From NCBI RefSeq assembly GCF_002954355.1, contig NZ_MQVV01000017.1, positions 310,001-374,000 of the forward strand: 64,000 nt of DNA, written 5' to 3'. The translations under genes were made by a program, and so were the position numbers. Positions within the stretch are counted from its first letter, which is position 1. Each line of letters opens with the position of its first letter. Under the pieces are notes generated by a model. The model had not been told where the DNA came from and ran no database searches. It saw only the letters and a program-made list of their open reading frames with translations. Positions 716 through 62,644 of this stretch are shown one piece after another. The stretch is from Nonlabens tegetincola (lineage in GTDB: Bacteria > Bacteroidota > Bacteroidia > Flavobacteriales > Flavobacteriaceae).

Positions 716-1252
716 TTACTTCAAACACTTGAAATAGTCAAAGGGCTCTAGACAATCATCACATTGAAACATTGCTTTACAAGCTGTTGAACCAAATTGA
801 CTGACTAGTTTTGTATTAGTAGAACCACAGTTGGTACATTTGACCAACTTTTTATTATTAAGTAAAACATCCTTATCGGCAGTTGGTTCTAGAGGAGCAG
901 CTATACCATATTCTTCCATAGCTTTACGACCACGTTCTGTAATCCAATCGGTTGTCCATGGTGGCGACATGATAAGTTGTATGGTGGTTGTGTAGCCCGC
1001 TTTCGCGAAAGCGCGATCTAAATCATCTCCTATAACATCCATTGCCGGACATCCACTATATGTAGGTGTAAGTTGAATGGTTACATGATCTTCATCCAAT
1101 TGCACACTTCTGATTACACCTAAATCAATAACACTCAAGACTGGAATCTCTGGATCAGAAACAGACTCTAAAATATCTAAAACATCTTTGGGTAAATCCA
1201 AAAATTGTTCAGAATTTAATTCATAAGAATTTGTTTTAGAATCACTACTCAT
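716..1252 (-). CDS. paaD: 1,2-phenylacetyl-CoA epoxidase maturation protein PaaD
   Basis: PaaD is the MIP18/SufT-like member of the phenylacetyl-CoA epoxidase set and is thought to help assemble the di-iron enzyme. The MIP18 domain is recognised by SDPEIPVLSVIDLGVI (residues 32-47) and the TPTYSGCPAMD segment (C68). The C-terminus carries a cysteine-rich zinc-ribbon-like tail with C139, C142, C158, C164 and C167. The length of 178 aa is close to the ~165 aa of E. coli PaaD. Residues 81-85 (AFAKA) are encoded by one copy of the window-wide palindrome. It is the last gene of the minus-strand paaEABCD operon, 244 bp after paaC; that gap is unusually long for this operon and shows no clear element. 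Confidence 0.9.
   Translation of the reverse strand: MSSDSKTNSYELNSEQFLDLPKDVLDILESVSDPEIPVLSVIDLGVIRSVQLDEDHVTIQLTPTYSGCPAMDVIGDDLDRAFAKAGYTTTIQLIMSPPWTTDWITERGRKAMEEYGIAAPLEPTADKDVLLNNKKLVKCTNCGSTNTKLVSQFGSTACKAMFQCDDCLEPFDYFKCLK
998..1013. repeat. Iterated palindrome copy 1 (inside paaD)
   Basis: Exact CGCTTTCGCGAAAGCG. It is read in frame as Ala-Phe-Ala-Lys-Ala in PaaD. Confidence 0.95.
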
Positions 1253-1496
1253 CTCTATGTCTGTAAATATTTTATTTCTTTAGTTAGCCAATACATTGAA
1301 AATAATCTTTGCTTCAATTTAAAAATGGGTTAAACTCAATATTTGAACGCTCACATAAAACTAAGTACTAGTAAAACAATTAAATTTTTAAATACTCTTT
1401 ATTTTAAAAGTCTCACTGCCAGTAATTTAAAACGAAAGTGCTATCAAAAAAGTTTTTAACCGCCGTTATAACTTACTGTAGAGGATTCACTCAATA

Positions 1497-2825: not shown

Positions 2826-2843
2826 AATATATTAAGTTCTTGA

Positions 2844-5129: not shown

Positions 5130-5720
5130 ATGTCATATTCTAAAATAAAGGCCCCAGCTAGTATTATTGATGCAGTAAATGAAGCTGTTAGTTATTTTCC
5201 TGAACTTTATCACACACCTATTGAATTTAAGTTTAATAATATGGTGCGTAAAAATTTTATGCAAGCTCAACCCAAATGGATAAGCTTTTTAAAAAGAAGA
5301 AAACATCGTAGTTATATTATCCTAATAAGTAAGGAGTTTAGAGTAGAGAACGAAATTTTCACTGTGAATGAAATTCCTTATGATGTACTTGTAGGTTGGT
5401 TAGGTCATGAATTAGGTCATGTGATGGATTATCGTAAAAGGAGCAGTTTAGGAATGTTAATATTTGGGATTAAATATTTGTATTCATCCGCACACATTCA
5501 AGAAGTAGAACGCACTGCCGATGAATATGCTGTAAGACATGGCATGGGAGAGCATATAATCAAAACCAAGAATTTTATTTTAAACCACACTAGTTTATCT
5601 GAGACTTATAAAAATCACATGCGTAAATTTTATTTATCTCCCGAGGAAATTTTAGAGTTGATTAATAGATATGGTGATACTGGTGAGAAACCAACTAGAG
5701 AAGAGCTTGCGCCTAAGTAA
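5130..5720 (+). CDS. Putative zinc metallopeptidase (HExxH protein)
   Basis: A 196-aa protein with the zinc-peptidase motif HELGH at residues 93-97 (GHELGHVMDY) followed by EVERTADEYAVRHG, where the Glu after ~20 residues could be the third ligand, as in M48/gluzincin-like enzymes. There is no signal peptide or membrane segment, so it is probably cytosolic. I chose the ATG at 5130 because it begins a normal start (MSYSKIKAP); the open frame reaches back to 5055 but that leader is hydrophobic and unlike the rest. It is divergent from paaE and overlaps the end of the GH3-like gene by 8 bp tail to tail. Substrate unknown. Confidence 0.65.
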   Translation: MSYSKIKAPASIIDAVNEAVSYFPELYHTPIEFKFNNMVRKNFMQAQPKWISFLKRRKHRSYIILISKEFRVENEIFTVNEIPYDVLVGWLGHELGHVMDYRKRSSLGMLIFGIKYLYSSAHIQEVERTADEYAVRHGMGEHIIKTKNFILNHTSLSETYKNHMRKFYLSPEEILELINRYGDTGEKPTREELAPK

Positions 5721-7239
5721 TGGTCGATTTACAAAATTGCTCCCATTCCTTAAAAGTATCTTCTTTCATAACTTTTTCCATTTTTACCTGACCACCTTTC
5801 TTCTTGTTGTAATCATTCCATTTTGAAAATATCTCTGGTGCAACTTTATGAACTATCACACCCTTTAAGGCCTTAGACCTTGCAACTTTATAATTTTTAT
5901 TTGCTTTTTGAAGTAAATCATCAAGATGTGATGCTAGCTCTTTCTCACTTACCTCAGTGGTTGTCCCTAACGTCCAAACGTGATAAAACTCACCTTTATT
6001 TTGTTTGGCACAAACTGTAAACTCCTTGATTGCTGTATCAAATTTGTTTTGCAGATCTGTTATCGCTGTTTCCATTTTAAGTACGGATAATTGACTACCT
6101 ACTACATTTAGAAAAAACTTTGTCCTTCCTGTGATTTTAATTTCAGCGCGATCAACATCAGTAAATTTAATCGTATCACCTATTAAATAACGCCAGGCAC
6201 CAGATACCGTTGAAATTATTAATGCATAATCCACATTTTCCTCCACTGCGCCTAAATGTAAAACTGGAGCATCTTCAACAATACTTCCATCTGGATTTAT
6301 GTATTCTGGTTTAAATGGAACAAATTCAAAATAAATACCACCATCAGTAACAAGTTGCATCGCGTCGGTTTCTGGTCTTTGTTGACTTGCTATAAAACCT
6401 TCGCTAGCTAGATAAGTATCTACAATTTGAACAGGTTTAGAAAACAGCTTTTCAAAACTGCTGCGATACGGCTCATAGGCAACTCCACCAGAGGTGTACA
6501 CAGACAAGTTAGGCCACACATCATGGATAGAATCAACCTTGTGATATTCCATCACTCTTTTAAGCATTATTTCAATCCAGGATGGTATACCGCTTAACAT
6601 TCCAATATCCCAATTTTCAGATTGAATTGCGATTTGCTGCACCCGTTCATCCCAATCATCTATGCTGGCAATTTCCTTTCCTGGCTTGTAAAAGGAACTC
6701 AAAAATTCTGGAATTTGACTAGCCGATATTCCACTAATCTCGCCTATAGTAAATCCGTTTTTATGGTCAAGATCAGTAGAACTTCCCAAAGCGAGAACCT
6801 CTTTTTCAAAAATTGAAGGATCCAAATTAAAATTACTTAATGCACTTACCTGTGAGGTTCCAGCATCCTTAATAGCTGTTATCATTTCATCAGTTACAGG
6901 TATCATCTTTGACTTTTTACCGGTTGTACCGCTTGATCTAGCTAAAAAACTAGGTAGACCTGGCCATGTAATATCGGGTTTCCCTTGTTTCATTTGTTGC
7001 CACCATCGATCATTCATTTTATGATAGTCGTAGAAGGGTATCGCTTTCGCGAAAGCGTGCCTAATATCATCACTTTCTAAAATGGAATCAAAATCATAGT
7101 AAATACCAAACGAAGTATCCTGAGCTGTGATGAGCATGTTACGCAGAACCTTTTCCTGTGATTTTACATGGTCTGTAACCGAGGTCAAATTTTCATGAAT
7201 ACTGAGCGCTGTCTTAATCAAGGGACCTAAGAATGCCAT
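5713..7239 (-). CDS. GH3 auxin-responsive-promoter family protein (acyl-adenylating enzyme)
   Basis: A 508-aa member of the GH3 family, ANL-like enzymes that adenylate a carboxylic acid and conjugate it to an amine. Nucleotide-binding motifs are visible: motif I SSGTTGKKSK (residues 102-111), motif II YLASEG (near 280), and motif III YLIGDTIKF (near 355). In plants GH3 enzymes conjugate auxin or jasmonate; the bacterial substrate is not known. Proximity to phenylacetate catabolism suggests aryl-acid chemistry but does not show it. Residues 62-66 (AFAKA) come from palindrome copy 2. Its 3' end overlaps the plus-strand peptidase by 8 bp. Confidence 0.85.
   Translation of the reverse strand: MAFLGPLIKTALSIHENLTSVTDHVKSQEKVLRNMLITAQDTSFGIYYDFDSILESDDIRHAFAKAIPFYDYHKMNDRWWQQMKQGKPDITWPGLPSFLARSSGTTGKKSKMIPVTDEMITAIKDAGTSQVSALSNFNLDPSIFEKEVLALGSSTDLDHKNGFTIGEISGISASQIPEFLSSFYKPGKEIASIDDWDERVQQIAIQSENWDIGMLSGIPSWIEIMLKRVMEYHKVDSIHDVWPNLSVYTSGGVAYEPYRSSFEKLFSKPVQIVDTYLASEGFIASQQRPETDAMQLVTDGGIYFEFVPFKPEYINPDGSIVEDAPVLHLGAVEENVDYALIISTVSGAWRYLIGDTIKFTDVDRAEIKITGRTKFFLNVVGSQLSVLKMETAITDLQNKFDTAIKEFTVCAKQNKGEFYHVWTLGTTTEVSEKELASHLDDLLQKANKNYKVARSKALKGVIVHKVAPEIFSKWNDYNKKKGGQVKMEKVMKEDTFKEWEQFCKSTIT
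7042..7057. repeat. Iterated palindrome copy 2 (inside GH3-like gene)
   Basis: Exact CGCTTTCGCGAAAGCG, read as Ala-Phe-Ala-Lys-Ala in the encoded protein. Confidence 0.95.
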
Positions 7240-9519: not shown

Positions 9520-10137
9520 TTAAGGTATTAGAATTAAAACGGCAATACCTACAAACACCACTATTTGCAACCATTTCATAAAGAATGGAAACCAGTTAGA
9601 GTTTTTAATAAACATAGCTGCGCGACCTGCTAATAATGCAATACTGTAAAAAACAACTAAGGAAACTGACATAAAAATTATTCCCAAAATATAAATTTGA
9701 ATCCATTCAGGAGTATCATTTTGAACTACAAATTGTGGTAGCAAAGCAAGAAAAAACAAACTTACCTTGGGATTCAAAATATTCATAGTTACTCCTATTT
9801 TGAACATCTCCCACCAATTACCTTGAGAAGTTTGAGAATCTTTCAATGAGATAGATGGATCAGACTTGAAGACTTGAAAGGCAAGATAGAGCAAGTAAAT
9901 AGCACCGGCTATTTTTATTCCTAGCAATAACCACTCATTATCCCTTATTACAACCGCAAACCCAAAAGCTACTAAAGAAGTGTGAGCAATACAACCTGTT
10001 ATTAATCCAGTTGCAATGGCAATTCCTATTTTACTACCACGAGCAACACTCTGTGTTAGAACAAAAATGTTATCTGGCCCAGGACTCAACGCAAGTAGTA
10101 GTGTGGCAAGCGCAAAAGAAACTAAAGATTCTATCAT
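9520..10137 (-). CDS. LysE/RhtB family amino-acid exporter
   Basis: A 205-aa integral membrane protein with about five or six hydrophobic segments and the LysE/RhtB signature ALSPGPDNIFVLTQS near the N-terminus, followed by GLITGCIAHTS and NPKVSLFFLALLPQFV. The family exports amino acids or their derivatives using the proton gradient; the substrate cannot be read from sequence. Its ATG overlaps the pyrD stop by one base (TAATG), so it is translationally coupled to pyrD. Confidence 0.88.
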   Translation of the reverse strand: MIESLVSFALATLLLALSPGPDNIFVLTQSVARGSKIGIAIATGLITGCIAHTSLVAFGFAVVIRDNEWLLLGIKIAGAIYLLYLAFQVFKSDPSISLKDSQTSQGNWWEMFKIGVTMNILNPKVSLFFLALLPQFVVQNDTPEWIQIYILGIIFMSVSLVVFYSIALLAGRAAMFIKNSNWFPFFMKWLQIVVFVGIAVLILIP

Positions 10138-11180
10138 TAACCTTGATCAATAATTGCCTTATTAATCCTTTGTATTAATCCAGGACCTTCATAAATAAAT
10201 CCGGTATACAACTGTACGAGACTTGCCCCAGCATTAAGTTTATCTAGAGCATCCTGTTCACTCATAATACCACCTACTCCTATAATGGGAAAAGCACCAT
10301 TACTCTTTGAATGTAAAAAACTTATGACTTGGGTTGCGCGATTAGTAAGCGGCGCACCACTTAATCCACCGACTTCATTTTGCAAGCTCTCTGCAGATTT
10401 TAATTTGTTTCTCTCTATAGTTGTATTGGTAGCAATCACACCATCAATCTTTGTATCTTCTACAATACCTATAATATCCATCAATTGATCATCAGTAAGA
10501 TCTGGGGCTATTTTCAATAATATAGGTTTACGTACTGGCTTCTTATTATTAATATCTTGTAGTGTCTGTAAAATATGAGTCAACGGTTTTCGATCTTGTA
10601 ATTCACGTAAACCTGGCGTATTTGGTGAACTCACGTTGACCGTAAAATAATCTACATACTCAAATAGTTTTTCAAAGCAAATGATGTAATCATTGACTGC
10701 TTCCTCGTTAGGAGTGATCTTATTTTTTCCAATATTCCCACCGATAATCACATGCCCTTTTTCACCAGGTCTTGGATTTTTCTTCAATCGTTCAACTGCA
10801 GCATCAACACCACCATTATTAAAGCCCATTCTATTAATAATTGCTGCATCATCCTTAAGCCTAAAAAGTCGTTGTTTGGGATTTCCGTCTTGTGGTTTAG
10901 GTGTAAGCGTCCCTATTTCAATAAACCCAAATCCTAGGTTTGAAAATTCTATAAAAGCTTTGGCATCTTTGTCAAATCCAGCAGCCATTCCAACAGGATT
11001 TGGAAATTTGATTCCAAATAATTCTCTTTCTAATGACTTTGGGTTGTTGTGGTAGCGCTTTCGCGAAAGCGAACTAAATCCAGGCAACTTGTTTAATAAC
11101 TTAACACTTTTGAATGAAAAATGATGTACTGCCTCTGGATCAAAGTTAAAAAGCAGTGGTCGTATTATAGTTTTATACAT
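10137..11180 (-). CDS. pyrD: Dihydroorotate dehydrogenase (quinone), class 2
   Basis: The fourth step of de novo pyrimidine synthesis: it oxidises dihydroorotate to orotate and passes electrons to quinone at the membrane. Class 2 markers are visible: an N-terminal helical extension ([13 protein letters not shown]), [13 protein letters not shown] for FMN binding, and [14 protein letters not shown] with the catalytic Ser. I take the ATG at 11180 ([10 protein letters not shown]), which matches the family start; an upstream ATG at 11198 adds only MPNLIP. Palindrome copy 3 encodes LSRKR near the N-terminus, in the extension rather than the barrel. It is coupled to lysE by a TAATG overlap. Confidence 0.93.
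11056..11071. repeat. Iterated palindrome copy 3 (inside pyrD)
   Basis: Exact CGCTTTCGCGAAAGCG, read in a second frame as Leu-Ser-Arg-Lys-Arg. Confidence 0.95.
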
Positions 11181-11225
11181 AGGAATAAGGTTGGGCAAAT
11201 TTACAATCTGTATTGCTTTATTGCA

Positions 11226-16635: not shown

Positions 16636-16651
16636 CGCTTTCGCGAAAGCG
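16636..16651. repeat. Iterated palindrome copy 4 (intergenic, upstream of aroQ)
   Basis: Exact CGCTTTCGCGAAAGCG, between the barrel-gene terminator and the aroQ start. Confidence 0.95.
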
Positions 16652-18395: not shown

Positions 18396-18410
18396 CGCTT
18401 TCGCGAAAGC
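18396..18410. repeat. Iterated palindrome copy 5 (intergenic, upstream of the aldo/keto reductase)
   Basis: CGCTTTCGCGAAAGC followed by T; the 14-bp core is exact and the last outer base differs. It lies 22 bp upstream of the reductase ATG. Confidence 0.93.
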
Positions 18411-23829: not shown

Positions 23830-26328
23830 TTGAAACAGCTTTTAACCTCGGTTTTTTTATTATTATCATTTCTTTCATTTAGTCAAAATGCCACAATTAC
23901 CGGTGTTATTCTAAACGAAAAAAACTTACCAGTAGGTGACATTAATGTAAGCATTACAGGCACCTCAATTGGTAACGCAACGGACAACAGCGGTTTCTAT
24001 AAAATCATAGTGCCAGCAAACGAATTACTCGAATTAAAGTTTTCTGCAATTGGTTATGAAACTATTATCATAAAAAATTTAAAGCTCGCAAACAATCAGG
24101 TTTTTGAACTTAATCCGGTTATTAAATCTACTATTGAGGAATTTAAGCCAATCGAAATAGATGCGATTAGAGACAATGAACTTAGAGGGATTACAAAAAT
24201 TAAACCTGCCATTATAAGAAATATGATAGGCGCTCAACCTGGTGTTGAAAATCTTCTTAAATCCTTACCTAGTATTAGTAGTAACAATGAATTGAGCACT
24301 CAATACAATGTAAGAGGTGGAAATTTTGATGAAAATCTAGTTTATATAAATGAGATTGAGGTTTACAGACCTTTTCTTATACGTAGTGGTCAACAAGAAG
24401 GGTTGAGTATTGTCAATTCTGATTTGGTACGAGATGTGAAATTTAGCGCTGGTGGATTTCAAGCACGATACGGTGATAAGTTAAGCTCTGTTTTGGATAT
24501 TGAATACCGTCGCCCTACCCAATTTGCTGCTGGAATCGACGCTTCTTTATTAGGTGTAAATAGTTATGTAGAAGGTACCGCTTTCGCGAAAGCGTTAACA
24601 GCAACTCTAGGAGTACGATATAGAGACAATAGCTTATTTGTGAACTCTAGAGAAACTGAAGCCATTACCATTCCAAGGTTTTTTGATGCTCAAACACACC
24701 TCACCTATCAGTTATCTCCTAAATTTGAATTAAGCTTCCTGGGAAATATTGCTATCAATGATTATGAATTTGAACCACTTACCTCTCAAACAAATTTTGG
24801 TACAGTAAACGATGCTCAAGCTTTAATTATTGACTATGACGGTCAAGAAAACGATAGGTACGAGACCTACTTTGGCGCAATAAAAGCCAGTTATGATGTT
24901 AATGATAACTTGAATGTAAGGTTAATATCTAGTGTTTATCACACTCAAGAACAGGAATACTATGACATTCTTGCAAGGTATAGCATAGGTCGTCCAAATA
25001 CAGATATTGGAGGAAGTGATCTAGGAGAAGTAGATTTTACAACCTCCATAGGAAGCGAACTAGATCATGGACGTAATAATCTAGATGCACTTATCACTAC
25101 TGCACAACTTAAATCAACTTACACCATACCTAGCTCCAAAAAAAATAAAGACGTTATCGATGCTAGTATTAAATTTAACAAGGAAGACATTAGAGATAGG
25201 TTAAGGGAATATACGGTTATAGATAGCGCCGGATTTAGCGTAAGGCCACCATTACCAGAATTTAGAAACCAACAACCTTATTTTTCATATACAGCTCCTT
25301 TAGTACCGTTTGAATCTGCAAGGGCCGATAATGATATTACCATCGATCGAGTACAGGCTTTTATACAATATAGTAGTCGTGGATATCTAGGAGATCACGA
25401 AACCTTCTGGAATGCAGGGATAAGATCTCATACATGGACTGTAGCCGGTGATGGAGTTGATAGTAATACTCAAACTGTATTTTCTCCTAGAGCTCAATTT
25501 GCTATAAAACCGTATTGGAAGAAAACAGATATGTTGTTCAGGCTGTCCGGTGGATTATACCATCAACCACCTTTTTATAGAGAGTTAAGAGATCAACAGG
25601 GAACGGTGCAACCACAAGTCGAGGCACAAAAATCAGTTCATATTGTTCTAGGGAATGACTGGAGTTTTAATTGGTCTTCTAAAAAAGACGAAATAAGACC
25701 ATTTAAACTGACTACCGAGGTTTATTATAAAGATTTATGGGATGTGAATACCTACACTCTTGAAAATGTTAGGCTACGATATAGAGCAAACAACAATGCT
25801 ACGGCCTATGCTTACGGGATAGAAACAAGAATGAATGGCGAGTTTATCAAAGGAACTGAAAGCTGGATCTCTCTTGCATATATGCGTACCCAAGAAAATT
25901 TGGACAATCGAGGATTTATTGATCGACCTACTGATCAAAGACTAAAGGCTGCATTCCTATTTCAAGATTATGTTCCTACAATACCTAACTTAAGAGCCTA
26001 TTTGAATATGGTTTATAGTACAGGGTTACCAGGCGGATCACCTAGTTATGCAGATCCTTATGATTTTCAATTTAGGCTTAAAGATTATTTTAGAGCAGAC
26101 CTTGGCGTACAACTCGAGCTTGTAGGACCTAACAAAGTTGCTAGAGATGACAGCTGGTTAGCCAACTTTACCGAACTTTCTATAGGTGCTCAAATCTATA
26201 ACATATTCAATTACGAAAATCAAATATCAAATCTTTGGGTGAGAGATGTAGCAAGTCAGGCACAATACGCGGTGCCTGTAAGATTAACTCCTAGAGTTTT
26301 TAATATAAGATTACTAGCTAGACTGTAG
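23830..26328 (+). CDS. TonB-dependent outer-membrane receptor
   Basis: An 832-aa receptor with signal peptide (MKQLLTSVFLLLSFLSFSQ), an N-terminal CarboxypepD-reg-like domain (ATITGVILNEKNLPVGDINV), a plug domain (QYNVRGGNFDENLVYINEIEVYR) and a beta barrel ending in NIRLLARL. There is no SusD partner, so it is not a classic Sus pair. The start must be TTG at 23830: the only upstream in-frame codon before the previous stop is TTT. Ala-Phe-Ala-Lys-Ala around base 24580 comes from palindrome copy 6. It overlaps the cysteine desulfurase gene by 11 bp tail to tail. Ligand unknown. Confidence 0.88.
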   Translation: MKQLLTSVFLLLSFLSFSQNATITGVILNEKNLPVGDINVSITGTSIGNATDNSGFYKIIVPANELLELKFSAIGYETIIIKNLKLANNQVFELNPVIKSTIEEFKPIEIDAIRDNELRGITKIKPAIIRNMIGAQPGVENLLKSLPSISSNNELSTQYNVRGGNFDENLVYINEIEVYRPFLIRSGQQEGLSIVNSDLVRDVKFSAGGFQARYGDKLSSVLDIEYRRPTQFAAGIDASLLGVNSYVEGTAFAKALTATLGVRYRDNSLFVNSRETEAITIPRFFDAQTHLTYQLSPKFELSFLGNIAINDYEFEPLTSQTNFGTVNDAQALIIDYDGQENDRYETYFGAIKASYDVNDNLNVRLISSVYHTQEQEYYDILARYSIGRPNTDIGGSDLGEVDFTTSIGSELDHGRNNLDALITTAQLKSTYTIPSSKKNKDVIDASIKFNKEDIRDRLREYTVIDSAGFSVRPPLPEFRNQQPYFSYTAPLVPFESARADNDITIDRVQAFIQYSSRGYLGDHETFWNAGIRSHTWTVAGDGVDSNTQTVFSPRAQFAIKPYWKKTDMLFRLSGGLYHQPPFYRELRDQQGTVQPQVEAQKSVHIVLGNDWSFNWSSKKDEIRPFKLTTEVYYKDLWDVNTYTLENVRLRYRANNNATAYAYGIETRMNGEFIKGTESWISLAYMRTQENLDNRGFIDRPTDQRLKAAFLFQDYVPTIPNLRAYLNMVYSTGLPGGSPSYADPYDFQFRLKDYFRADLGVQLELVGPNKVARDDSWLANFTELSIGAQIYNIFNYENQISNLWVRDVASQAQYAVPVRLTPRVFNIRLLARL
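24579..24594. repeat. Iterated palindrome copy 6 (inside TonB receptor gene)
   Basis: Exact CGCTTTCGCGAAAGCG, read as Ala-Phe-Ala-Lys-Ala. Confidence 0.95.
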
Positions 26329-28454: not shown

Positions 28455-28978
28455 GACTTGTTTTGATAGAAATACACTTCAGTTGCACCCAGTCCGTACT
28501 TCTTGAAGTCGGCATCATAATAAGTTAAATGCTCATAACGATTAAGTAAATACTCGAGCTCGGTTTTTAATACACCAGTTCCCACTCCATGGATCAAAAT
28601 TAATTTGGGAATTCTGTTTTGTAGAGCCCATTCCACTTTAGAACGAGCTACCTGCAGTTGTAAATCTAACTTTTCATGCGGTTGCATGTAAGCATCCTTA
28701 TTAGTTAGTTGATGAATATGCAAATCGACTTCTATCGGTGGTAGTTGCCCTTTTTTCCTTTTTTTCGATTGTTTTTTCTTAGGCTCTTCTGCCATAGAGA
28801 TATCCACGGCACCTATTTGGAATGTTTGATCTAGAATAACCTGCTTGGGATCTACTTGGATTTCTATTTCCTCATCTGTAATTATGGTAAGTGAATCCGC
28901 TTTCGCGAAAGCGACAACACCACGTACATCGTCGTCGATAAAGGTTATCCTATCCCCTTTTTTGAATTTACGACTCAT
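28451..28978 (-). CDS. Smr domain protein
   Basis: A 175-aa protein with a C-terminal Smr domain (VDLHIHQLT, LILIHGVGTGVLKTEL, YYDADFKKYGLGATEVYF). In MutS2 this domain has nuclease activity; stand-alone forms are found across Bacteroidota. The N-terminal 60 residues form a small KOW/SH3-like barrel (KGDRITFIDDDVRGVVAF). Palindrome copy 7 encodes AFAKA at about residues 23-27 of that N-terminal part. It is coupled to the downstream or neighbouring small membrane protein by an 11-bp overlap. Confidence 0.85.
   Translation of the reverse strand: MSRKFKKGDRITFIDDDVRGVVAFAKADSLTIITDEEIEIQVDPKQVILDQTFQIGAVDISMAEEPKKKQSKKRKKGQLPPIEVDLHIHQLTNKDAYMQPHEKLDLQLQVARSKVEWALQNRIPKLILIHGVGTGVLKTELEYLLNRYEHLTYYDADFKKYGLGATEVYFYQNKS
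28898..28913. repeat. Iterated palindrome copy 7 (inside Smr gene)
   Basis: Exact CGCTTTCGCGAAAGCG, read as Ala-Phe-Ala-Lys-Ala. Confidence 0.95.
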
Positions 28979-34615: not shown

Positions 34616-36034
34616 ATGTCTAAAAGAAGAAAAAGAGCACAAAAAACCTTTTTAAATGTACCTGTGGTTGATGCTGGTGCTAAAGGTAAAAGCGTAGCAA
34701 AAACTGAAGATGGTGAGGTGATTTTTCTTACCGATGCGGTTCCTGGTGATGTGGTAAACATTCAAACCTTTAAGAAAAAAAGATCCTTTTATGAAGGCCG
34801 CGTAACAGAATTTATAAGTAAGAGTGATCGTCGTACAACACCGGTATGTAAACACTTTAGTGTGTGTGGTGGTTGTAAATGGCAACACATGAAGTATGAG
34901 GACCAACTACATTTTAAACAGAAGGAAGTTGTAGAGAATCTTACTAGAATAGGCCATCTAGAATTACCTAGTGTGACACCTATTTTGGGTTCTGCAAAAC
35001 AATACCACTATCGCAATAAAATGGAATTCAGTTTTTCTGCAAACCGCTGGCTTACTCTTGAAGAGATAAACAGTGACAAAGAGATTCAGGATAAAAAAGC
35101 TTTAGGATTCCACATTCCTGGTATGTGGGATAAAATTTTACATCTGGATGAGTGTCATTTACATCCTGCTATTGGTGAGAAGATAAGATTGAGTGTTCAC
35201 GCTTTCGCGAAAGCGGAAAATTTATCATACTACGATCCTAGAGAACGTACAGGATTGTTACGTACCTTAATGCTGCGCATGGCGTCAACAGGTGAGAACA
35301 TGGTGGTAATTCAGTTTTTTCAAGAAGATGAAGCAAAACGCATTGCTTTACTTGAACACTTAAAATTACAATTTCCAGAGATTACATCTTTACAATATAT
35401 AATCAATGAAAAAGCAAACGACACTATATATGATCAAGATGTGATTTGTTACCATGGTGAAGATCATATTTGGGAAGAAATGGAAGGTTTAAAATTTAAA
35501 ATAAACGCCAAATCATTCTACCAAACAAATAGTGAACAAGCTTATGAATTGTATAAAATAACAAGAGATTTTGCGTCATTAAAAGGAGACGAATTAGTCT
35601 ATGATTTATACACAGGAACTGGAACTATAGCACAATTTGTAGCAAAAAAAGCAAAACACGTGGTAGGTGTTGAAGCGGTCGAAGTAGCTATTAAAGATGC
35701 GCAAGAAAACGCGCAAGTAAACAATATAGAAAACACCACCTTTTATGCTGGTGATATGAAAAATGTGTTTACTCAACAATTTATTGAAGAAAATGGTGCC
35801 CCAGATGTGGTTATAACAGATCCACCAAGAGATGGTATGCATAAGGATGTTGTTGCTCAATTGCTTAACTTACAAGCACCAAAAATTGTATATGTAAGTT
35901 GTAACAGTGCAACACAAGCGCGTGATCTCGCGTTATTAGATCAACATTATAAAATTGATAAAATCCAACCTGTAGATATGTTCCCGCAAACGCACCATGT
36001 AGAGAATGTAGTGCTACTTACTTTAAAATCGTAA
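34616..36034 (+). CDS. rlmD: 23S rRNA (uracil-5-)-methyltransferase RlmD/RumA
   Basis: A 472-aa SAM-dependent RNA m5U methyltransferase. It has an N-terminal TRAM domain (residues 12-68), an Fe-S cysteine cluster C78-x5-C84-x2-C87 plus a later DEC, a SAM-binding DLYTGTGTIAQF and the catalytic Cys in VSCNSATQARD. E. coli RlmD modifies U1939; in Bacteroidota the exact target is not certain. Palindrome copy 8 encodes AFAKA in the region between the Fe-S and SAM domains. The TlpA-like gene follows 2 bp later. Confidence 0.9.
   Translation: MSKRRKRAQKTFLNVPVVDAGAKGKSVAKTEDGEVIFLTDAVPGDVVNIQTFKKKRSFYEGRVTEFISKSDRRTTPVCKHFSVCGGCKWQHMKYEDQLHFKQKEVVENLTRIGHLELPSVTPILGSAKQYHYRNKMEFSFSANRWLTLEEINSDKEIQDKKALGFHIPGMWDKILHLDECHLHPAIGEKIRLSVHAFAKAENLSYYDPRERTGLLRTLMLRMASTGENMVVIQFFQEDEAKRIALLEHLKLQFPEITSLQYIINEKANDTIYDQDVICYHGEDHIWEEMEGLKFKINAKSFYQTNSEQAYELYKITRDFASLKGDELVYDLYTGTGTIAQFVAKKAKHVVGVEAVEVAIKDAQENAQVNNIENTTFYAGDMKNVFTQQFIEENGAPDVVITDPPRDGMHKDVVAQLLNLQAPKIVYVSCNSATQARDLALLDQHYKIDKIQPVDMFPQTHHVENVVLLTLKS
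35200..35215. repeat. Iterated palindrome copy 8 (inside rlmD)
   Basis: Exact CGCTTTCGCGAAAGCG, read as Ala-Phe-Ala-Lys-Ala. Confidence 0.95.
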
Positions 36035-39907: not shown

Positions 39908-40321
39908 TTACATTTTACTATCCAAAAACGTTTGTAAAATAATTGTTGCTGCGATCTCATCAACCAGGGCTTTATTACGCCTTTTGGATTTTGACAAACC
40001 ACTATCAATCATGGTTTGAAAAGCCATTTTTGAAGTAAATCTTTCGTCCACTCTCGTAATTTCTATGGATGGGTATTTTTCTTGTAACGCTTTCGCGAAA
40101 GCGTCAATCACATCTCCTAATTCACTAGGTTCACCATTCATTTGTTTAGGTTCACCTATTACGATCGTGCTTACTTCCTCATTACGTAAATAATTTTCAA
40201 TGAATGGTACTAATTCATAGGTGTTTACAGTGGTAAGACCTGATGCTATAAGTTGCAAGGGATCTGTAACTGCAATGCCTGTTCTTTTTTTACCGTAATC
40301 TATAGAAAGTGCTCTAGCCAT
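39908..40321 (-). CDS. ruvX: Holliday junction resolvase-like protein YqgF/RuvX
   Basis: A 137-aa RNase H-like fold protein linked to pre-16S rRNA processing and to Holliday-junction resolution. The start MARALSIDYGKKRTGIAVTD carries the catalytic Asp (D8), VIGEPKQMNG the second strand, and VDERFTSKMA the conserved DER. Palindrome copy 9 encodes AFAKA near residues 73-77. Upstream is the divergent dapD promoter region. Confidence 0.93.
   Translation of the reverse strand: MARALSIDYGKKRTGIAVTDPLQLIASGLTTVNTYELVPFIENYLRNEEVSTIVIGEPKQMNGEPSELGDVIDAFAKALQEKYPSIEITRVDERFTSKMAFQTMIDSGLSKSKRRNKALVDEIAATIILQTFLDSKM
40088..40103. repeat. Iterated palindrome copy 9 (inside ruvX)
   Basis: Exact CGCTTTCGCGAAAGCG, read as Ala-Phe-Ala-Lys-Ala. 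Confidence 0.95.
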
Positions 40322-44817: not shown

Positions 44818-45572
44818 GATTTAAACAGTCCTTTTAATTTCTTTTTAAATCTTTTTTTACGGTGAAATTTATCTTGAAATTTTTGCACACTTTCCCACAT
44901 GGATTCAATAGCATGTTGAGCATCCTTATCAGATAATTTTGCATACTCCTTACCCATTATATCATACATCCATTTTTTGGGCGATAATCGCTCAAAATTC
45001 TTCAATCTCATATTATAAGGTATGTCAAAAAATTTCATTCTGTTTAAATCAACCAGACTAAAAGTATAGCCTTGCGAAGTTTTCTTAATCAAGGTATTCC
45101 CAGGAGAATGATCTAGGAAATAAATACCGGCCTCATGCATTTCATACATAAAAGAGGCAAACTCCTTGAGAATTTGTTCTTTATCTTGAAGTGAATCATC
45201 ATTAATAAGTTCTCTAAAAGTAAAGTCATGTTCCCCATAATAACATATGTAATAACTATCCTTTAAAGTGAAAATCCCTAGTTTTTCTAGATAAGCCACT
45301 GGTTGTGGGGTTCCTATTCCTTTTTCAGTTAAATAAACCGCATTTTCATAGGATCTTCTTGCCTTTGATTTTCTTATAAATCTGTAAACAAACTGATTTA
45401 TAAAGTTTGGTTTCTTGAAGGATTTTACGACATACTTTTCATCTTCCCATTCAATTACCTTTATAGTATTACGTGGATCTCCTAATCTATTTTCAGAATC
45501 GTAAAACAACTCTAGTAAATGTTGTATTCGCTTTCGCGAAAGCGAACTAGAAAAAAACCTCTCTTTAAACAT
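44814..45572 (-). CDS. Lipopolysaccharide kinase (KDO kinase/WaaP-like)
   Basis: A 252-aa protein-kinase-fold protein. The catalytic loop is recognised as FLDHSPGNTLI (Asp-His...Asn in place of HxDxxxxN) and the metal-binding DLNR in FSLVDLNRMKF. This resembles the KDO kinase/RIO-like LPS kinases that phosphorylate heptose or KDO. An N-terminal Lys in YVVKSFKKPN could bind ATP. Palindrome copy 10 encodes LSRKR near the N-terminus. It is upstream of and overlaps the glycosyltransferase gene. Confidence 0.8.
   Translation of the reverse strand: MFKERFFSSSLSRKRIQHLLELFYDSENRLGDPRNTIKVIEWEDEKYVVKSFKKPNFINQFVYRFIRKSKARRSYENAVYLTEKGIGTPQPVAYLEKLGIFTLKDSYYICYYGEHDFTFRELINDDSLQDKEQILKEFASFMYEMHEAGIYFLDHSPGNTLIKKTSQGYTFSLVDLNRMKFFDIPYNMRLKNFERLSPKKWMYDIMGKEYAKLSDKDAQHAIESMWESVQKFQDKFHRKKRFKKKLKGLFKS
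45529..45544. repeat. Iterated palindrome copy 10 (inside the LPS kinase gene)
   Basis: Exact CGCTTTCGCGAAAGCG, read as Leu-Ser-Arg-Lys-Arg. Confidence 0.95.
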
Positions 45573-50011: not shown

Positions 50012-50295
50012 TTGTTCTCACTTTTACAAAACTTCATTTTTAATAAAAGCTAATATCACTAGGCTCTTTGATTTCGCTTTCGCGAAAGCGTAATAACTAT
50101 AGTTGCACCATAGTTCACTAGAGAAGAAAGTCGTCAATTTGATTTCTTAAAATCTTTAATTTTTTCAATTGTATATCGTCCTTTTTTTGAGCATTTCTAG
50201 TGTTTTATTCCTATAAAATTACCATTGAGCAACTCATACAGAGATTGAGCAAGATATTATTTTCATGAGATACTTAATCGTATTTTTATAAATTG
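50012..50295. other. Intergenic stretch before the sensor pseudogene
   Basis: About 280 bp. It holds palindrome copy 11 and AT-rich DNA; I see no gene. Confidence 0.5.
50075..50090. repeat. Iterated palindrome copy 11 (intergenic)
   Basis: Exact CGCTTTCGCGAAAGCG, 65 bp after the cca stop. Confidence 0.95.
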
Positions 50296-52696: not shown

Positions 52697-52712
52697 CACT
52701 TTCGCGAAAGCG
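52697..52712. repeat. Iterated palindrome copy 12 (degenerate, upstream of pepT)
   Basis: CACTTTCGCGAAAGCG: one base of the consensus (G to A at the second position) is changed. It lies 34 bp before the pepT start. Confidence 0.85.
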
Positions 52713-52745: not shown

Positions 52746-53981
52746 ATGATGAATAAAGAAGAAGTTCTAGAGCGATTTTTAAGCTATATAAGCATTGATA
52801 CCGAAAGTGATGCCTCAAGCCCAACGACACCAAGTACAGATAAACAATGGGACCTTGCTCGTAAATTACATCAAGAGTTGATCGATATGGGAATGAGTGA
52901 TGTTACAATAGATGAACATGCTTACGTCATGGCTACTTTACCGTCAAATGTCGATCACGAGGTACCAACGATTGGATTCATTTCTCATTTTGACACCACT
53001 CCTGATTATACAGGAAAGAATATCAAACCGCAAATAATTGAAAATTATGATGGTGGTGATATTCCTCTTAAAGGAAGCGATCTCATTTTATCTCCAGATT
53101 ATTTTGAATCTCTTAAAAACTATATAGGTCAAACTATTATTACTACAGACGGTACTACACTTTTAGCAGCAGATGATAAAGCTGGTATAACCGAAATCAT
53201 GACAGCAGTTAAATATTTAATCGACCATCCAGAAATTAAGCATGGAGCTATCAAAGTAGGTTTTACACCCGATGAAGAGATTGGTCGTGGCGCTCATAAA
53301 TTTGATGTAGAAAAATTTGGTGCCGATTGGGCCTACACAATGGACGGTAGTCAAGTAGGTGAATTAGAATATGAAAATTTTAATGCCGCTGGCGCCGTGG
53401 TGACTTTTCATGGTAAAATTGTTCATCCTGGATATGCCAAAGGCAAAATGATTAATTCTATGTATGTGGCCAGTGAGTTTATTGAATCATTACCCAAATT
53501 AGAAACTCCTGAGCATACAGAGGACTATCAAGGTTTTTTCCACCTACATAATATGAAAGGTGCTGTAGAAAAAACCGAATTACATTACATCATACGCGAT
53601 CACGATAAAGAGCATTTTGAAGCTAGAAAAGAAATGCTAATCAAATTGGTAAGCGACCTAAACGAGCAGTACGACAGAGAGGCTGTAAGTATTGAAATCA
53701 ACGATCAATATTACAACATGCGAGAGAAAGTAGAGCCTGTAATGCATATTGTTGATGTTGCTGAAAAAGCCATGAAAGAATTAGGAATCACTCCACTCAT
53801 TAAACCCATTAGAGGTGGAACTGATGGATCTCAATTAAGCTACATGGGATTACCATGCCCTAACATTTTTGCCGGTGGACACAACTTTCATGGACCATAT
53901 GAATATGTTCCTTTAGAAAGCATAGTCAAGGCAACTGAGGTCATTGTTAAAATTGCTGAACTAGTCGCCAAGCCTGAATAA
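52746..53981 (+). CDS. pepT: Peptidase T (tripeptide aminopeptidase)
   Basis: A 411-aa M20 metallopeptidase releasing N-terminal residues from tripeptides. The zinc-binding set is visible: H81 and D83 ([11 protein letters not shown]), D143 ([10 protein letters not shown]), E177/E178 ([12 protein letters not shown]) and a C-terminal His ([13 protein letters not shown]). Length matches PepT (~408 aa). Cytosolic, single gene; the palindrome and three hairpins lie upstream. Confidence 0.93.
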
Positions 53982-55371: not shown

Positions 55372-56310
55372 CTACATCAAACCACGACCTACTTTATTGA
55401 TAAGGTCTTGAGCTGTGAGTTCTTTAAGTAACCTATCTAGAATACCATTTACAAAAGTGCTACTTTTAGGAGTACTGTAATCCTTGGCGATCTCTAGATA
55501 TTCGTTCAAAGTCACCTTTGTTGGAATACTAGGAAAGTACAAGTATTCTGCCTGGGCCATCATAATAAGTATACTATCGATAGGTGCAATACGTTCCTTA
55601 TCCCAATTAGGTGTTTTACCTTCTATACGACCTTCTAATTCCTCACTATTAAGGACTGTTTTTCTAAACAAATCCATAGCAAACTTGATATCATCTTGAT
55701 CTTTAACCAGAACTGGCATTTTAACATCCTTAGATGGCTTTACCTTTCTTAAGAACATGATTATATTACTGTTGACAAGTGGATAGTCATCCATCCAAGT
55801 AATATTGATATCCTCCAAATAATCCATGATCTCATCACTAGGAGCGATAAGATTTTCATAGACATTAAGTAGGAATTTTAAATCTCTTTTCAACGACGGC
55901 TCTTCCTCCATCGCGTATAAAACAAATTCCTTACTGCTTATAATCTTATCATATAGATTATGTATGTATTTTGAATCTAGATGCCATGGATCGATTTTAC
56001 GTTTTTCTAGGGCATCAACCAGCTCTTGACTTTCTCTAAGCTTAAGTAGAATTTTATTATCAATCAAATGACGACTGGGATTACGTTCAGCATCAGTAGC
56101 GATATGACGGTTTTGAGCAAGCTCGTGTTTATCGACTGCGTGCTCATGTAGTTTTACTAAAAGCTGTACCATGTATAGAAACAAGGTATACGTTTGCGTC
56201 ATACTTGTGTTTAAAAAGGTTTCTAGACTTTTTAATTCATCTGGTTGTTGACGCTGAAATGCAAATACAGCTTGCATCACTTTAATTCGTAGTTGTCTTC
56301 TAGTAAGCAT
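55372..56310 (-). CDS. nusB: Transcription antitermination protein NusB
   Basis: A 312-aa protein, longer than E. coli NusB (139 aa) as is usual in Bacteroidota. The start MLTRRQLRIKVMQAVFAFQ and the C-terminal RIAPIDSILIMMAQAEYLYFPSIPTKVTLNEYLEIAKDYSTPKSSTFVNGILDRL match the NusB domain; the middle is a helical insert with no known role. NusB works with NusE in rRNA antitermination. Palindrome copy 13 lies upstream. Confidence 0.9.
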   Translation of the reverse strand: MLTRRQLRIKVMQAVFAFQRQQPDELKSLETFLNTSMTQTYTLFLYMVQLLVKLHEHAVDKHELAQNRHIATDAERNPSRHLIDNKILLKLRESQELVDALEKRKIDPWHLDSKYIHNLYDKIISSKEFVLYAMEEEPSLKRDLKFLLNVYENLIAPSDEIMDYLEDINITWMDDYPLVNSNIIMFLRKVKPSKDVKMPVLVKDQDDIKFAMDLFRKTVLNSEELEGRIEGKTPNWDKERIAPIDSILIMMAQAEYLYFPSIPTKVTLNEYLEIAKDYSTPKSSTFVNGILDRLLKELTAQDLINKVGRGLM

Positions 56311-56393: not shown

Positions 56394-56409
56394 CGCTTTC
56401 GCGAAAGCG
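56394..56409. repeat. Iterated palindrome copy 13 (intergenic, upstream of nusB)
   Basis: Exact CGCTTTCGCGAAAGCG between nusB and the dehydrogenase gene. Confidence 0.95.
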
Positions 56410-56463: not shown

Positions 56464-57567
56464 TTAAGCTAGTTGCTCTTGTTTTCTAGCATCAATGCGA
56501 GCTTGTGCAATTTCAAGCGCAGCTTGATGAGTAGTTACACCAGTCTCGTGAGCTCTATTGAGAATTTCAATAGTAGTAGTGTAAATATTTTCAGTCTTGC
56601 GCATGATTTCGGTACGATCATACCCTTCAAGCTCGGCATAGACATTTATAATCCCACCTGCATTGATAAGGAAATCTGGTGCATATAAGATACCACGCTC
56701 TTGCAATCTTTTACCGTGTTTTTGCTCATCGGCTAATTGGTTGTTTGCAGCACCAGCAACGATATCACAGTTTAATAAATTAACTGTATCATCATTTACA
56801 GTAGCTCCTAATGCACAAGGTGCGTAGATATCCATTTTCTCAGCATAAAGATTAGTCCCACCATAAATAGTAGCACCATACTTATCTCTAACTTCTTCTA
56901 ATTTCCCTTGATTAATGTCTGATACGACCACTTTAGCTCCTTCTTGAGTAAGGTATTCTACCAAAGTTTCTCCTACATTACCGATTCCTTGAACATATAC
57001 CGTTTTATCTTCAAGAATGTCACTACCGTATTTGTATTTTGCAGCAGCCTTCATTCCCATAAAGACACCATAAGCGGTAATTGGACTAGGATTTCCTGCT
57101 CCACCTTTATCTTGTGAAATACCTGTTACATATGGAGTGACTTCTCTCACAGTATCCATATCTTCAGTTTCCATACCTACATCCTCTGCAGTAATGTACT
57201 TACCGCTCAACGAGTGAACAAATTCACCAAAACGGCGCATTAATTCTGGAGTCTTTTGGGTTTTGGCATCACCTATAATTACGGCTTTTCCACCACCTAA
57301 ATTTAATCCTGTAATGGCACTTTTATATGTCATACCACGTGATAATCGTAGTACATCATTAAGGGCTTCCCATTCGTTTTTGTATTGCCACATTCTAGTT
57401 CCTCCTAATGCAGGACCTAAAACTGTGTTATGAATTCCGATAATGGCACGTAATCCAGTATCTTTGTCATTACAAAAAACAATTTGTTCATGATTATTAA
57501 AGGAAACCTGTCCAAAAACGGGATCCTGTTGAATCATTTCTTCAACGCTTGTATAGTCTTGTGACAT
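56464..57567 (-). CDS. Leu/Val/Phe (Glu-family) dehydrogenase
   Basis: A 367-aa amino-acid dehydrogenase: catalytic-lysine segment MTYKSAITGLNLGGGKAVI, GKYITAEDVGMETEDMD, the NAD motif VYVQGIGNVGETLVEYL and CALGATVNDDTVN. The length and motifs fit leucine/valine dehydrogenase rather than hexameric glutamate dehydrogenase, but the exact amino acid is not certain. It makes branched-chain 2-oxo acids, matching the HMG-CoA-lyase gene earlier in the window. Its promoter is at 57608-57638. Confidence 0.88.
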   Translation of the reverse strand: MSQDYTSVEEMIQQDPVFGQVSFNNHEQIVFCNDKDTGLRAIIGIHNTVLGPALGGTRMWQYKNEWEALNDVLRLSRGMTYKSAITGLNLGGGKAVIIGDAKTQKTPELMRRFGEFVHSLSGKYITAEDVGMETEDMDTVREVTPYVTGISQDKGGAGNPSPITAYGVFMGMKAAAKYKYGSDILEDKTVYVQGIGNVGETLVEYLTQEGAKVVVSDINQGKLEEVRDKYGATIYGGTNLYAEKMDIYAPCALGATVNDDTVNLLNCDIVAGAANNQLADEQKHGKRLQERGILYAPDFLINAGGIINVYAELEGYDRTEIMRKTENIYTTTIEILNRAHETGVTTHQAALEIAQARIDARKQEQLA

Positions 57568-60067: not shown

Positions 60068-60097
60068 AAAGCCTTTCCCTACGGAAGGCTTTTTTTA
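60068..60097 (+). terminator. Terminator after DUF3276 gene
   Basis: AAAGCCTTTCC-ctac-GGAAGGCTTT with one bulged T, followed by seven T. Confidence 0.8.
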
Positions 60098-60121
60098 TTT
60101 TTAAAAAAATTTCCCATTCAC

Positions 60122-62644
60122 ATGAAAATTACTCGCCATATACTAGTTATCTTAAGCTGTGTTTTTAGTATCGCTTTCGCGAAAGCGCAATCAAATCCTA
60201 CACTAGTCAACCCAACCTTAGATTATTACTTACCCCAAGACATCTCTTATGATTCCAAAATCTCTAAACCACAAGACGTTTTAGGATATGTTCCAGGTAA
60301 GTGGCATGTGACACACGACAAACTTGTAGAATACATGCGTGTACTAGCCCAACAATCAGATAGAATTACCATAGAAAATCGAGGTTATACTTTTGAGGAC
60401 AGACCTTTATTGCTACTTACAATAACGTCTCCTGAAAATCATGCTAACCTAGACACTATTCAAAAAGAACACCTAGCTCTTTCCAACAGCAATGAAGCAG
60501 ATGTAAGCAACATGCCGATTGTAGTCTACCAAGGTTTTTCTATACATGGTAACGAAGCTAGTGGATCAAATGCAGCTTTACTACTAGCTTATTATCTAGC
60601 AGCTGCACAAGGTGATGAAATAAACAACCTCCTAAAAAACACGGTTATTTTATTTGACCCAAGTTTTAACCCAGATGGCTTACAACGTTTTGCAGGTTGG
60701 GTAAATCAACACAAAAATAAAAATGTAACTCCTGATGGGTATGATAGAGAATACAGTGAAGCATGGCCAGGTGGACGTACTAATCATTATTGGTTTGATA
60801 TGAACCGTGACTGGTTACCAGTTCAACTTCCAGAATCACAAGCCCGTATTGAAACTTTTCACAACTGGATGCCCAACATTCTTACCGACCATCATGAAAT
60901 GGGTACCAATGCTACTTTTTTTTTTCAACCGGGAATTCCATCGCGCACGCACCCATTAACACCTGCAATGAATCAGCAATTAACTCGTGAAATAGGAAAT
61001 TATCACGCTACCGAGTTAGATAAGATAGGATCCTTGTATTATACAGAAGAAAGTTATGACGACTTTTATTACGGTAAGGGATCTACTTTTCCAGATGTAA
61101 ATGGGTCAATAGGAATACTTTTTGAACAAGCTAGCTCGCGTGGTCACGCTCAAAATTCTGAAAATGGTGTACTTACATTCCCATTTACGGTGCGCAATCA
61201 ATATACAGCTGGAATAAGCACGTTGAAAGCTGCGGTAAGTATGCGAGAAAAGATATTAAATTACCATAAGGACTTTTATGCAAACGCTCGAAAAGAAGCA
61301 GATAATGGCGCGATAATTTTCGGTGATCATACTGACGCTGGCAGGACTGATGCTCTTGCTGATATTTTACGCCGTCATAAAATTGAAGTAAAAAGCCTTA
61401 AAAATGACGTCAACAGAAACGGAAAAACCTTTAAAAAAGGATATGCTTACATCGTTCCTAAGAATCAAAAGAACTCTCGATTAATCAAAGCGATGTTTGA
61501 AAAGCGTACACAGTTTCAAGATAGTTTATTCTATGACATAAGCGCATGGACCTTTCCACTAGCATTTGATATGGATTATGACGAAAATGCAAGTTTAAAT
61601 AATGCTGCAGATAGAATGTCCAATTCCAAAACCAATGAAATACAAATATCAGATTACGCCTACCTAATGCCATGGAATGAGTACAAGACCCCAAAGGTTC
61701 TTAACTCTCTTTTATCAAAAGGTATTCGGTCAAAAGTTGCTATGGAACCTTTTTCTATTGAAGGACGCAACTATGATTATGGAACAATTTTAATTCCAGT
61801 ACAAAATCAGTCATTGAGTAAAACTGCTCTAGCTGAGTTATTGTTTGAATTACAACAAGATAATAAAGTAGACATTTACCCAGTTCAATCTGGCTTAACT
61901 ACAGGAATTGATTTAGGCTCACGTCAATTCAGAGCGCTTAAACTACCTAAAGTTGCTTTATTAATAGGCGATGGTATAAATCCATACGATGCAGGAGAGA
62001 TATGGCATCTGTTTGATCAACGCTATGACATCCCATTAACTAAGATAGACATCAATGACCTTAATCGTAGGGACTTATCTAAATACAACACCATTATCGT
62101 ACCTAATACCTACGGTAGTCCAGAAAATGAGGTGATAGACCAATTAAAAGCATGGACTCGGGACGGAGGAACTCTTATCGGCTATAGAAGTGCCCTACGA
62201 TGGATGAGTAGTTCAAAAATGCTACCGCTCGAATTCAGAAAAACAGAGAACCCAGCAGAAAACATTTCTTTTGAACAGCGATCTGCTTTTTATGGTGCGC
62301 AAAATATAGGTGGCGCTATTTTTGAAACTAAATTAGATCGTTCACATCCTATTGCTTTCGGTTTTAAAGATGATCAGTTACCTATGTTTCGCAATACCAG
62401 ATTATTCATAGAACCACATAAAGATTCTTTTAGAAACCCTATTACTTACACCAATTCACCGTTAATGAGTGGTTATATAAGTGATATTAATCTAGAAGCA
62501 TTGAAAAACAGTGTTCCATTTAGACATAATAATTATGGCCGTGGTGATGTAATTGGTTTTACAGACAACACTCAATTCAGGGCATTTTGGTATGGTACAA
62601 ATAAATTACTAATGAACGCTATATTCTTTGCAGAACAGATGTAG
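60122..62644 (+). CDS. M14 family zinc carboxypeptidase (exported)
   Basis: An 840-aa exported metallopeptidase. Signal peptide: residues 1-22, where AFAKA at 18-22 is encoded by palindrome copy 14 and forms the AxA cleavage site. The M14 domain has the zinc ligands H142 and E145 in the SIHGNEASGSN motif and a later His in LTDHHEMG (around residue 257). A long C-terminal part looks like a class I glutamine-amidotransferase-like domain (KVALLIGDGINPYDAGEIWHLF, TIIVPNTYGSPENEVIDQLKAW), as in related Bacteroidota peptidases. It degrades extracellular or periplasmic peptides. Confidence 0.88.
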   Translation: MKITRHILVILSCVFSIAFAKAQSNPTLVNPTLDYYLPQDISYDSKISKPQDVLGYVPGKWHVTHDKLVEYMRVLAQQSDRITIENRGYTFEDRPLLLLTITSPENHANLDTIQKEHLALSNSNEADVSNMPIVVYQGFSIHGNEASGSNAALLLAYYLAAAQGDEINNLLKNTVILFDPSFNPDGLQRFAGWVNQHKNKNVTPDGYDREYSEAWPGGRTNHYWFDMNRDWLPVQLPESQARIETFHNWMPNILTDHHEMGTNATFFFQPGIPSRTHPLTPAMNQQLTREIGNYHATELDKIGSLYYTEESYDDFYYGKGSTFPDVNGSIGILFEQASSRGHAQNSENGVLTFPFTVRNQYTAGISTLKAAVSMREKILNYHKDFYANARKEADNGAIIFGDHTDAGRTDALADILRRHKIEVKSLKNDVNRNGKTFKKGYAYIVPKNQKNSRLIKAMFEKRTQFQDSLFYDISAWTFPLAFDMDYDENASLNNAADRMSNSKTNEIQISDYAYLMPWNEYKTPKVLNSLLSKGIRSKVAMEPFSIEGRNYDYGTILIPVQNQSLSKTALAELLFELQQDNKVDIYPVQSGLTTGIDLGSRQFRALKLPKVALLIGDGINPYDAGEIWHLFDQRYDIPLTKIDINDLNRRDLSKYNTIIVPNTYGSPENEVIDQLKAWTRDGGTLIGYRSALRWMSSSKMLPLEFRKTENPAENISFEQRSAFYGAQNIGGAIFETKLDRSHPIAFGFKDDQLPMFRNTRLFIEPHKDSFRNPITYTNSPLMSGYISDINLEALKNSVPFRHNNYGRGDVIGFTDNTQFRAFWYGTNKLLMNAIFFAEQM
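60172..60187. repeat. Iterated palindrome copy 14 (inside the M14 peptidase signal peptide)
   Basis: Exact CGCTTTCGCGAAAGCG, read as Ala-Phe-Ala-Lys-Ala, giving the signal-peptidase cleavage site. Confidence 0.95.

Follow-up and report, generated by a model that had tools for sequence, protein, structure and literature searches.

A palindrome iterated along Nonlabens chromosomes and its possible role in chromosome maintenance

Palindrome copies in a 64-kb stretch of Nonlabens tegetincola

Here, we analysed a palindrome that recurs along a 64,000-nucleotide stretch of the Nonlabens tegetincola genome (RefSeq assembly GCF_002954355.1, contig NZ_MQVV01000017.1, positions 310,001 to 374,000), which is referred to as the window. 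When up to two mismatches were allowed, the 14-mer GCTTTCGCGAAAGC was found 13 times as an exact copy and once with a single mismatch (at 52698), with the copies spanning positions 999-60186, while 100 dinucleotide shuffles of the window gave a mean of 0.12 matches and never more than one. This recount agrees with the first-pass annotation of the window as regards the 14-bp core. The same annotation had counted a 16-bp palindrome 14 times, which has to be lowered to 12 exact copies of the 16-mer CGCTTTCGCGAAAGCG; it is broken by a T after the copy at 18397 and by the core mismatch at 52698. Its description of a palindrome without a loop that lies in both coding and intergenic DNA was borne out. 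The copies and the open reading frames (ORFs) around them are listed below, with the families and domains as assigned by Pfam.

999..1012, copy 1: inside ORF 716-1252 (-), PaaD-type zinc ribbon / Fe-S assembly domains
7043..7056, copy 2: inside ORF 5713-7239 (-), GH3 family
11057..11070, copy 3: inside ORF 10137-11198 (-), dihydroorotate dehydrogenase
16637..16650, copy 4: between ORFs 16191-16613 (-) and 16717-17316 (-)
18397..18410, copy 5: between ORFs 17443-18354 (+) and 18432-19379 (+); 3' neighbour T, 16-mer inexact
24580..24593, copy 6: inside ORF 23830-26328 (+), CarboxypepD_reg/TonB-receptor plug
28899..28912, copy 7: inside ORF 28451-28978 (-), Smr domain
35201..35214, copy 8: inside ORF 34616-36034 (+), tRNA (uracil-5-)-methyltransferase family
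40089..40102, copy 9: inside ORF 39908-40321 (-), RuvX
45530..45543, copy 10: inside ORF 44814-45572 (-), Kdo/WaaP kinase family
50076..50089, copy 11: between ORFs 48587-50011 (+) and 50293-50796 (+)
52698..52711, single-mismatch copy ACTTTCGCGAAAGC: between ORFs 50909-52153 (+) and 52746-53981 (+)
56395..56408, copy 13: between ORFs 55372-56310 (-) and 56464-57567 (-)
60173..60186, copy 14: inside ORF 60122-62644 (+), encoding AFAKA at the apparent end of a signal peptide (SIAFAKAQS)

Abundance, taxonomic spread and anatomy of the site

The source genome (G000, 3.03 Mb) contains 577 copies of the palindrome and none of the same pattern written backwards; the genome-wide count, which had been named beforehand as a possible refutation, thus came out far above expectation. 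A sample of 464 kb, composed of 400 kb of contig C10 and the window, held 93 exact copies as well as 12, one and seven copies with one, two and three mismatches, respectively, compared with averages of 0, 0, 0.43 and 7.1 (for 0, 1, 2 and 3 mismatches) for 30 control palindromes with a shuffled half-site. All 23 Nonlabens genomes were rich in the motif (288-857 copies, the lowest number in a genome that is 78% complete), as were all five Dokdonia genomes (705-903 copies), while five controls from other genera had 0, 6, 3, 0 and 0. Two genomes of the Dokdonia survey, G569 and G570, appear identical to G501 and G502 of the Nonlabens survey, with equal counts, and G576 likewise appears to be the same as G012. 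Among 199 genomes that sampled the family, mostly one per genus, the palindrome was present in 44, but more than 17 copies were found only in the source genome, a genome of the same genus (578) and G190, which belongs to a further genus (408). The remaining 196 had 0-17 copies, which, where examined, lay mostly on island DNA shared between genomes. In the class sample, 16 of 295 genomes had a copy, 577 in the source genome and at most four in the others.

The closest named relatives of a window protein belong to Nonlabens (79-80% identity). In a quick tree of one protein, Dokdonia and Nonlabens did not form one clade and strongly supported branches forced two changes; therefore, the trait moved, was widely lost or arose more than once. 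A search of 80 named flavobacterial loci for other dialects of the palindrome found no recurrent 14-mer palindrome outside the six loci that carry this one, and recurrent palindromes of 12 and 10 bp amounted to three isolated cases, one each. No published account of the palindrome was found in the open-access literature, a search that lay outside subscription papers and preprints.

The variants of the core follow a clear pattern. Among the 48 single-mismatch copies from four data sets, position 4 of the half-site was changed in 33 (T to C in 27), and the central CGCG was hit in one. Because the variants cluster at one half-site position and the central CGCG is nearly invariant, the site behaves like that of a two-fold-symmetric DNA-binding protein. 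In this respect, the earlier proposal of a dimeric protein is supported. Of the suggested binders, a segregation protein of the ParB type is disfavoured, and a methylase, a repair factor or uptake machinery may still apply. Half-sites outside of the palindrome were mildly in excess in the 464 kb (10, 15 and 41 compared with 6.0, 8.3 and 25.5 expected), and half-site words were mostly 1.1- to 1.8-fold of their Markov expectation, with AAAGCG in the source genome below it. That the variants are symmetric in pattern and that half of the palindrome does not suffice point to a two-fold-symmetric reader of double-stranded DNA.

The site is also larger than was first described. A C precedes and a G follows the 14-mer at about 93% of the sites, followed by a T/A-rich ATT(A/T) preference, and on each strand the roughly 25 nt that lie 5' of the core form an arm depleted of C (5-12% compared with a background of 18.5%) and raised in G and T. 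The arms were alike at coding and intergenic sites (9.2% and 6.6% C). In g190, with a GC content of about 48%, they were less pronounced and did not extend as far. Where a relative lacked the site, its C content at the arm was 13.4% compared with 6.4% in the bearer, or 9.9% compared with 6.6% when one partner per site was taken. Arm changes from A to T outnumbered those from T to A by 269 to 122, in pairs that are not independent. A deamination scar as the cause of the arms is disfavoured; G and T were gained through transversions as well as transitions. The first-pass annotation had stated that the flanks differ beyond 16 bp, which is correct letter by letter but overlooks this shared structure. 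Longer shared flanking sequence, as in dispersed mobile repeats such as repetitive extragenic palindromic (REP) elements or miniature inverted-repeat transposable elements (MITEs), had likewise been named beforehand as a possible refutation and was not found; the flanks resemble one another in composition, not in sequence, and the copies are not remnants of one mobile repeat.

A single-stranded hairpin, terminator or priming site is conceivable in that one strand of the idealised 26-mer folds (-9.5 kcal/mol). However, its would-be loop is CGCG, the best conserved part of the site, only one of the 27 copies with two mismatches has kept its palindromic form, the 3' flanks of the core are A/C-rich rather than T-rich and convergent genes flank only one of the 26 intergenic sites, which makes this explanation hardly credible.

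Location, spacing and conservation

The 93 sites of the 464-kb sample comprised 67 coding and 26 intergenic ones, although intergenic DNA makes up 8.5% of the total; a second ORF caller gave 69 coding sites. AFAKA is read at 39 of the 67 coding sites. The site at 60173-60186 of the window and several on C10 are among those read in this way. A handful of the AFAKA sites end apparent signal peptides (AFAKAQ/AFAKAYSQ), and the DNA mark thus sometimes appears to double as a signal-peptide cleavage-site sequence. In three Dokdonia genomes, the site dictates SFRES in one protein, in contrast to the D(F)(T/S) that predominates in other genera.

Analysis of the spacing over 400 kb showed a mean gap of 5.0 kb with a coefficient of variation (CV) of 0.48 and no gap below 1 kb compared with 14.3 expected, and in the window the CV was 0.27. 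Random placement gave CVs of 0.99 and 0.93, respectively, and none of 5000 simulations was as low as observed. Counts per 20 kb were under-dispersed in both Nonlabens C10 (P 0.0017) and g190 (P 0.00035), and all of 20 places that were sampled around the g190 chromosome held 1-4 sites per 20 kb. In 21 orthologous regions, which are not independent, the 67 gaps had a CV of 0.44 and none was below 1 kb. The CV of the listed sites was 0.46-0.65 in two Dokdonia genomes and G010, and gaps below 1 kb were rarer than random in all seven site lists, including that of G490 (5 compared with 18.5 expected). The avoidance of close pairs is therefore the robust feature, while overall evenness is not uniform across the genomes.

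These data bear on two alternatives. In the first, the palindrome would be a Chi-like landmark of recombination or repair, at which end processing stops and, on either side, a recombinase is loaded onto the GT-rich 3'-ended strand 5' of the core. The polarity of the GT-rich arms would suit such a role, RecA prefers GT-rich DNA, and the density of the sites is near that of Chi, which in 200 kb of E. coli had a mean gap of 4.4 kb. The spacing of Chi in that sample was random, however (CV 1.04, with 7 of 42 gaps below 1 kb), and the half-site counts given above argue for the whole palindrome being needed, unlike Chi, which is read on one strand. Chi proper was rejected on half-site counts and spacing, no strand-read over-represented oligomer being found, and a landmark of a similar kind is improbable. 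The second alternative is a by-product of a methylation-dependent repair bias with no function of its own, as was proposed by Elhai for HIP1 (PMC4390886). The CGCG centre would be consistent with it, as would a sequence that, like HIP1, is palindromic and iterated. A mutational bias, however, does not predict the avoidance of close pairs, nor arms that arose through both transversions and transitions, and the deviations lie at half-site position 4, whereas those of HIP1 are reported to lie at the outer letters. We consider this by-product very improbable.

The sites are also conserved in position. Of 20 other Nonlabens genomes, 15 have an exact copy of the one at 35201, four a copy with one mismatch and the remaining one a copy with two. 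Among all aligned pairs, at 74% identity, 671 of 984 sites (68%) were identical compared with 15822 of 376862 other 14-mers (4.2%). The aligned partner states were bimodal, with 593 exact, 188 with one or two differences, two with three and 118 with at least four; the ortholog pairs behind these statistics and those on the arms are not independent. Six Nonlabens genomes without an intact site at 40089 had a copy near 41431 instead, about 1.3 kb away, and two others had the 40089 site together with a single-mismatch copy near 41431. For this one locus, the pattern resembles a turnover of sites under a constraint on their spacing. Elsewhere in the window, a 6S-Flavo RNA was detected at 21250-21360 (-) with 94.5 bits.

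Islands, phages and the interpretation of the site

In motif-poor genera, the copies that were examined lie mostly on shared DNA. All 16 exact copies of G076 lie inside 78 kb and 12 of the 17 of G051 inside 39 kb, regions of the two and of related motif-poor genomes can be aligned with one another at 66-87%, and a pair of copies 933 bp apart recurs across several genera. The outer-membrane gene with this pair was found in 16 of 23 Nonlabens genomes (15 strongly and one weakly, E 8.8e-9), one of them 95% identical. The compared cassette loci had been chosen for carrying the site, and 24 of their 39 partner states were exact, or 14 of 27 without the close relative G051. The simplest reading is that the copies in motif-poor genera represent transfer from motif-rich hosts. 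The region in G076 (L036-L040, contig C3, about 31-116 kb) holds metal-transport genes and a large serine-recombinase-like protein, named in part from their sequence alone, and has the appearance of a mobile island whose recombinase is of the serine type. A four-gene operon in this island weakly resembles Jet/Wadjet, with only the second gene matching a JetB model (E 1e-4). A function borne by this element, with its metal-resistance genes and Jet/Wadjet-like operon, was dropped as the origin of the palindrome; the same cassette is common in Nonlabens and the whole genus carries chromosomal sites.

Some viral contigs of IMG/VR carry two or three copies with arms; portal, head, tail and terminase genes lie next to them, and one contig has an integrase. 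The first of these loci were found by the motif itself; the portal and terminase sets were not, though their query sequences were. In the portal-similarity set, 11 of 59 loci carried the palindrome (25 exact copies and 6 with a single mismatch over a total of 158 kb, with several of the contigs being near copies of one another), the carriers being the nearest relatives, while 48 loci (594 kb) had no copy; in the terminase set, 5 of 80 loci carried it. The position of the copy after the start of the portal gene was fixed at +1705 or +1711 at 65% protein identity. The phage lineages L221, L219 and L237 and their relatives have the palindrome at conserved places, and more distant relatives have none. 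Two lytic Nonlabens phages (35,700 and 35,652 bases), whose host is named Persicivirga sp. IMCC12024, gave no match even when two mismatches were allowed, and a search of plasmid and phage collections with an idealised 46-mer gave no relevant match. Resident islands and some phages that carry the site would be in line with a self mark, by which a host nuclease would attack long DNA without it. Against this stand the two site-free lytic phages of 35.7 kb each, though counter-defence is possible, and site-free stretches of 20-30 kb in G490; such a mark seems quite improbable.

The main rival is a DNA-uptake signal. Competent cells would prefer DNA that carries the palindrome and recombination would spread it, similarly to the uptake signal sequence (USS) of Haemophilus and the DNA uptake sequence (DUS) of Neisseria. 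A genome-wide excess and conserved positions, both features of DNA uptake sequences, were found here. An exact motif shared across the genus, conserved orthologous positions, the intergenic enrichment (26 of 93 sites in 8.5% of the DNA) and the extensive cross-genus transfer of motif-bearing DNA all fit this explanation, and the density of the palindrome is within the range of that of uptake sequences. Uptake sequences, however, are not known to be palindromes. A ComEC family protein was present in all 21 genomes searched, but equally in four motif-poor controls and most named control genomes, and hence does not discriminate. The positions kept in phages are harder for biased uptake to explain, and uptake sequences are described in PMC1939737 as less evenly spaced than compaction sites. 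Overall, an uptake signal is unlikely, though less so than the alternatives considered above.

We favour, with a probability of roughly 40%, the interpretation that the palindrome is a genome-wide spaced anchor for chromosome maintenance that is used by a two-fold-symmetric protein. Such a protein would bind the double-stranded palindrome, and the hundreds of sites a few kb apart would serve as anchors or landmarks for the organisation, segregation or repair of the chromosome. Islands, temperate phages and other DNA resident in it would have to carry sites too, and the GT-rich arms would be part of the site, where the protein may wrap or open the DNA or load a partner. We infer binding by a protein, and by a single one, a role in chromosome maintenance and a function of the arms. 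The depletion of close pairs, the presence of sites on resident DNA and their absence from the two lytic phages fit a chromosome-maintenance mark.

Several observations weigh against the anchor. No protein that reads the site was found, the ParB family being the candidate examined. The listed sites of G490 and g190 are much less even, with CVs of 0.92 over 94 sites (1012 of 4000 random draws were as low) and 0.77 over 26 sites, respectively. Close pairs do occur (223 bp in G490 and 155 bp in G572), and the site-free stretches of G490 noted above are hard on it as well. The lack of any copy in the two lytic phages can also be counted on this side, and a drive, for instance biased uptake, would equally lead to kept positions and an avoidance of close pairs. 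A bolder version of the anchor is somewhat unlikely. It would make the palindrome a chromosome ruler, in which a symmetric protein in unrelated marine flavobacterial genera requires all resident DNA to carry sites at intervals of a few kb, opens the GT-rich arms or loads a partner on them and imposes its DNA word on proteins (AFAKA, RFRES, LSRK) and phages.

Few bacterial chromosomes are known to have a long two-fold-symmetric word that is so strict and regular. If it is an architectural anchor, the palindrome would offer a direct handle on how the chromosome is divided into units of a few kb in little-studied bacteria. It is also a clean test case for separating selection on spacing from uptake drive, and it labels DNA that originated in motif-rich genera inside other flavobacteria.

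Among the known systems, parS/ParB and Noc share with the palindrome a 16-bp class of site with TTTC...GAAA halves; they differ in a centre of two bases rather than four, and here hundreds of sites lie all round the chromosome while canonical parS is separate. The canonical parS GTTTCACGTGAAAC, with up to one mismatch, was found twice, about 1.9 kb apart, in the eight Nonlabens genomes searched and in G190; in the source genome, the pair lies at C10:258539 and C10:260433. PF02195 had one match each in G000, G010 and G190, and the helix-turn-helix region was alike in 10 aligned ParB proteins. With parS separately present and a ParB that looks ordinary, this family is an unlikely reader of the palindrome. 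matS is likewise a short palindrome, read by MatP for chromosome organisation. The palindrome, in contrast, is not confined to one macrodomain, and a terminus-limited site of this kind was rejected on the 20 of 20 sampled g190 places that hold 1-4 sites.

HIP1 (GCGATCGC), with which the first-pass annotation had compared the palindrome, is a short palindrome iterated in coding and intergenic DNA whose role is unsettled. The comparison stands as an analogy and does not go beyond it: HIP1 is an 8-mer of cyanobacteria, the palindrome is 14-16 bp with arms in another phylum, and membership was rejected as both sequence and taxon differ. According to PMC4390886, HIP1 is tied to GATC/CGATCG methyltransferases. 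The E. coli Chi sequence, GCTGGTGG, resembles the palindrome in its frequency of about one per 4-5 kb and in the GT-rich strand on the 5' side; the palindrome is a whole double-strand site without orientation, with a CV of 0.27-0.92 compared with 1.04 in the Chi sample. Finally, USS and DUS are similar to it in being exact genus-wide motifs with conserved positions that occur in transferred DNA, while the site described here differs from them in that it is palindromic, has fewer close pairs and is conserved in phages.

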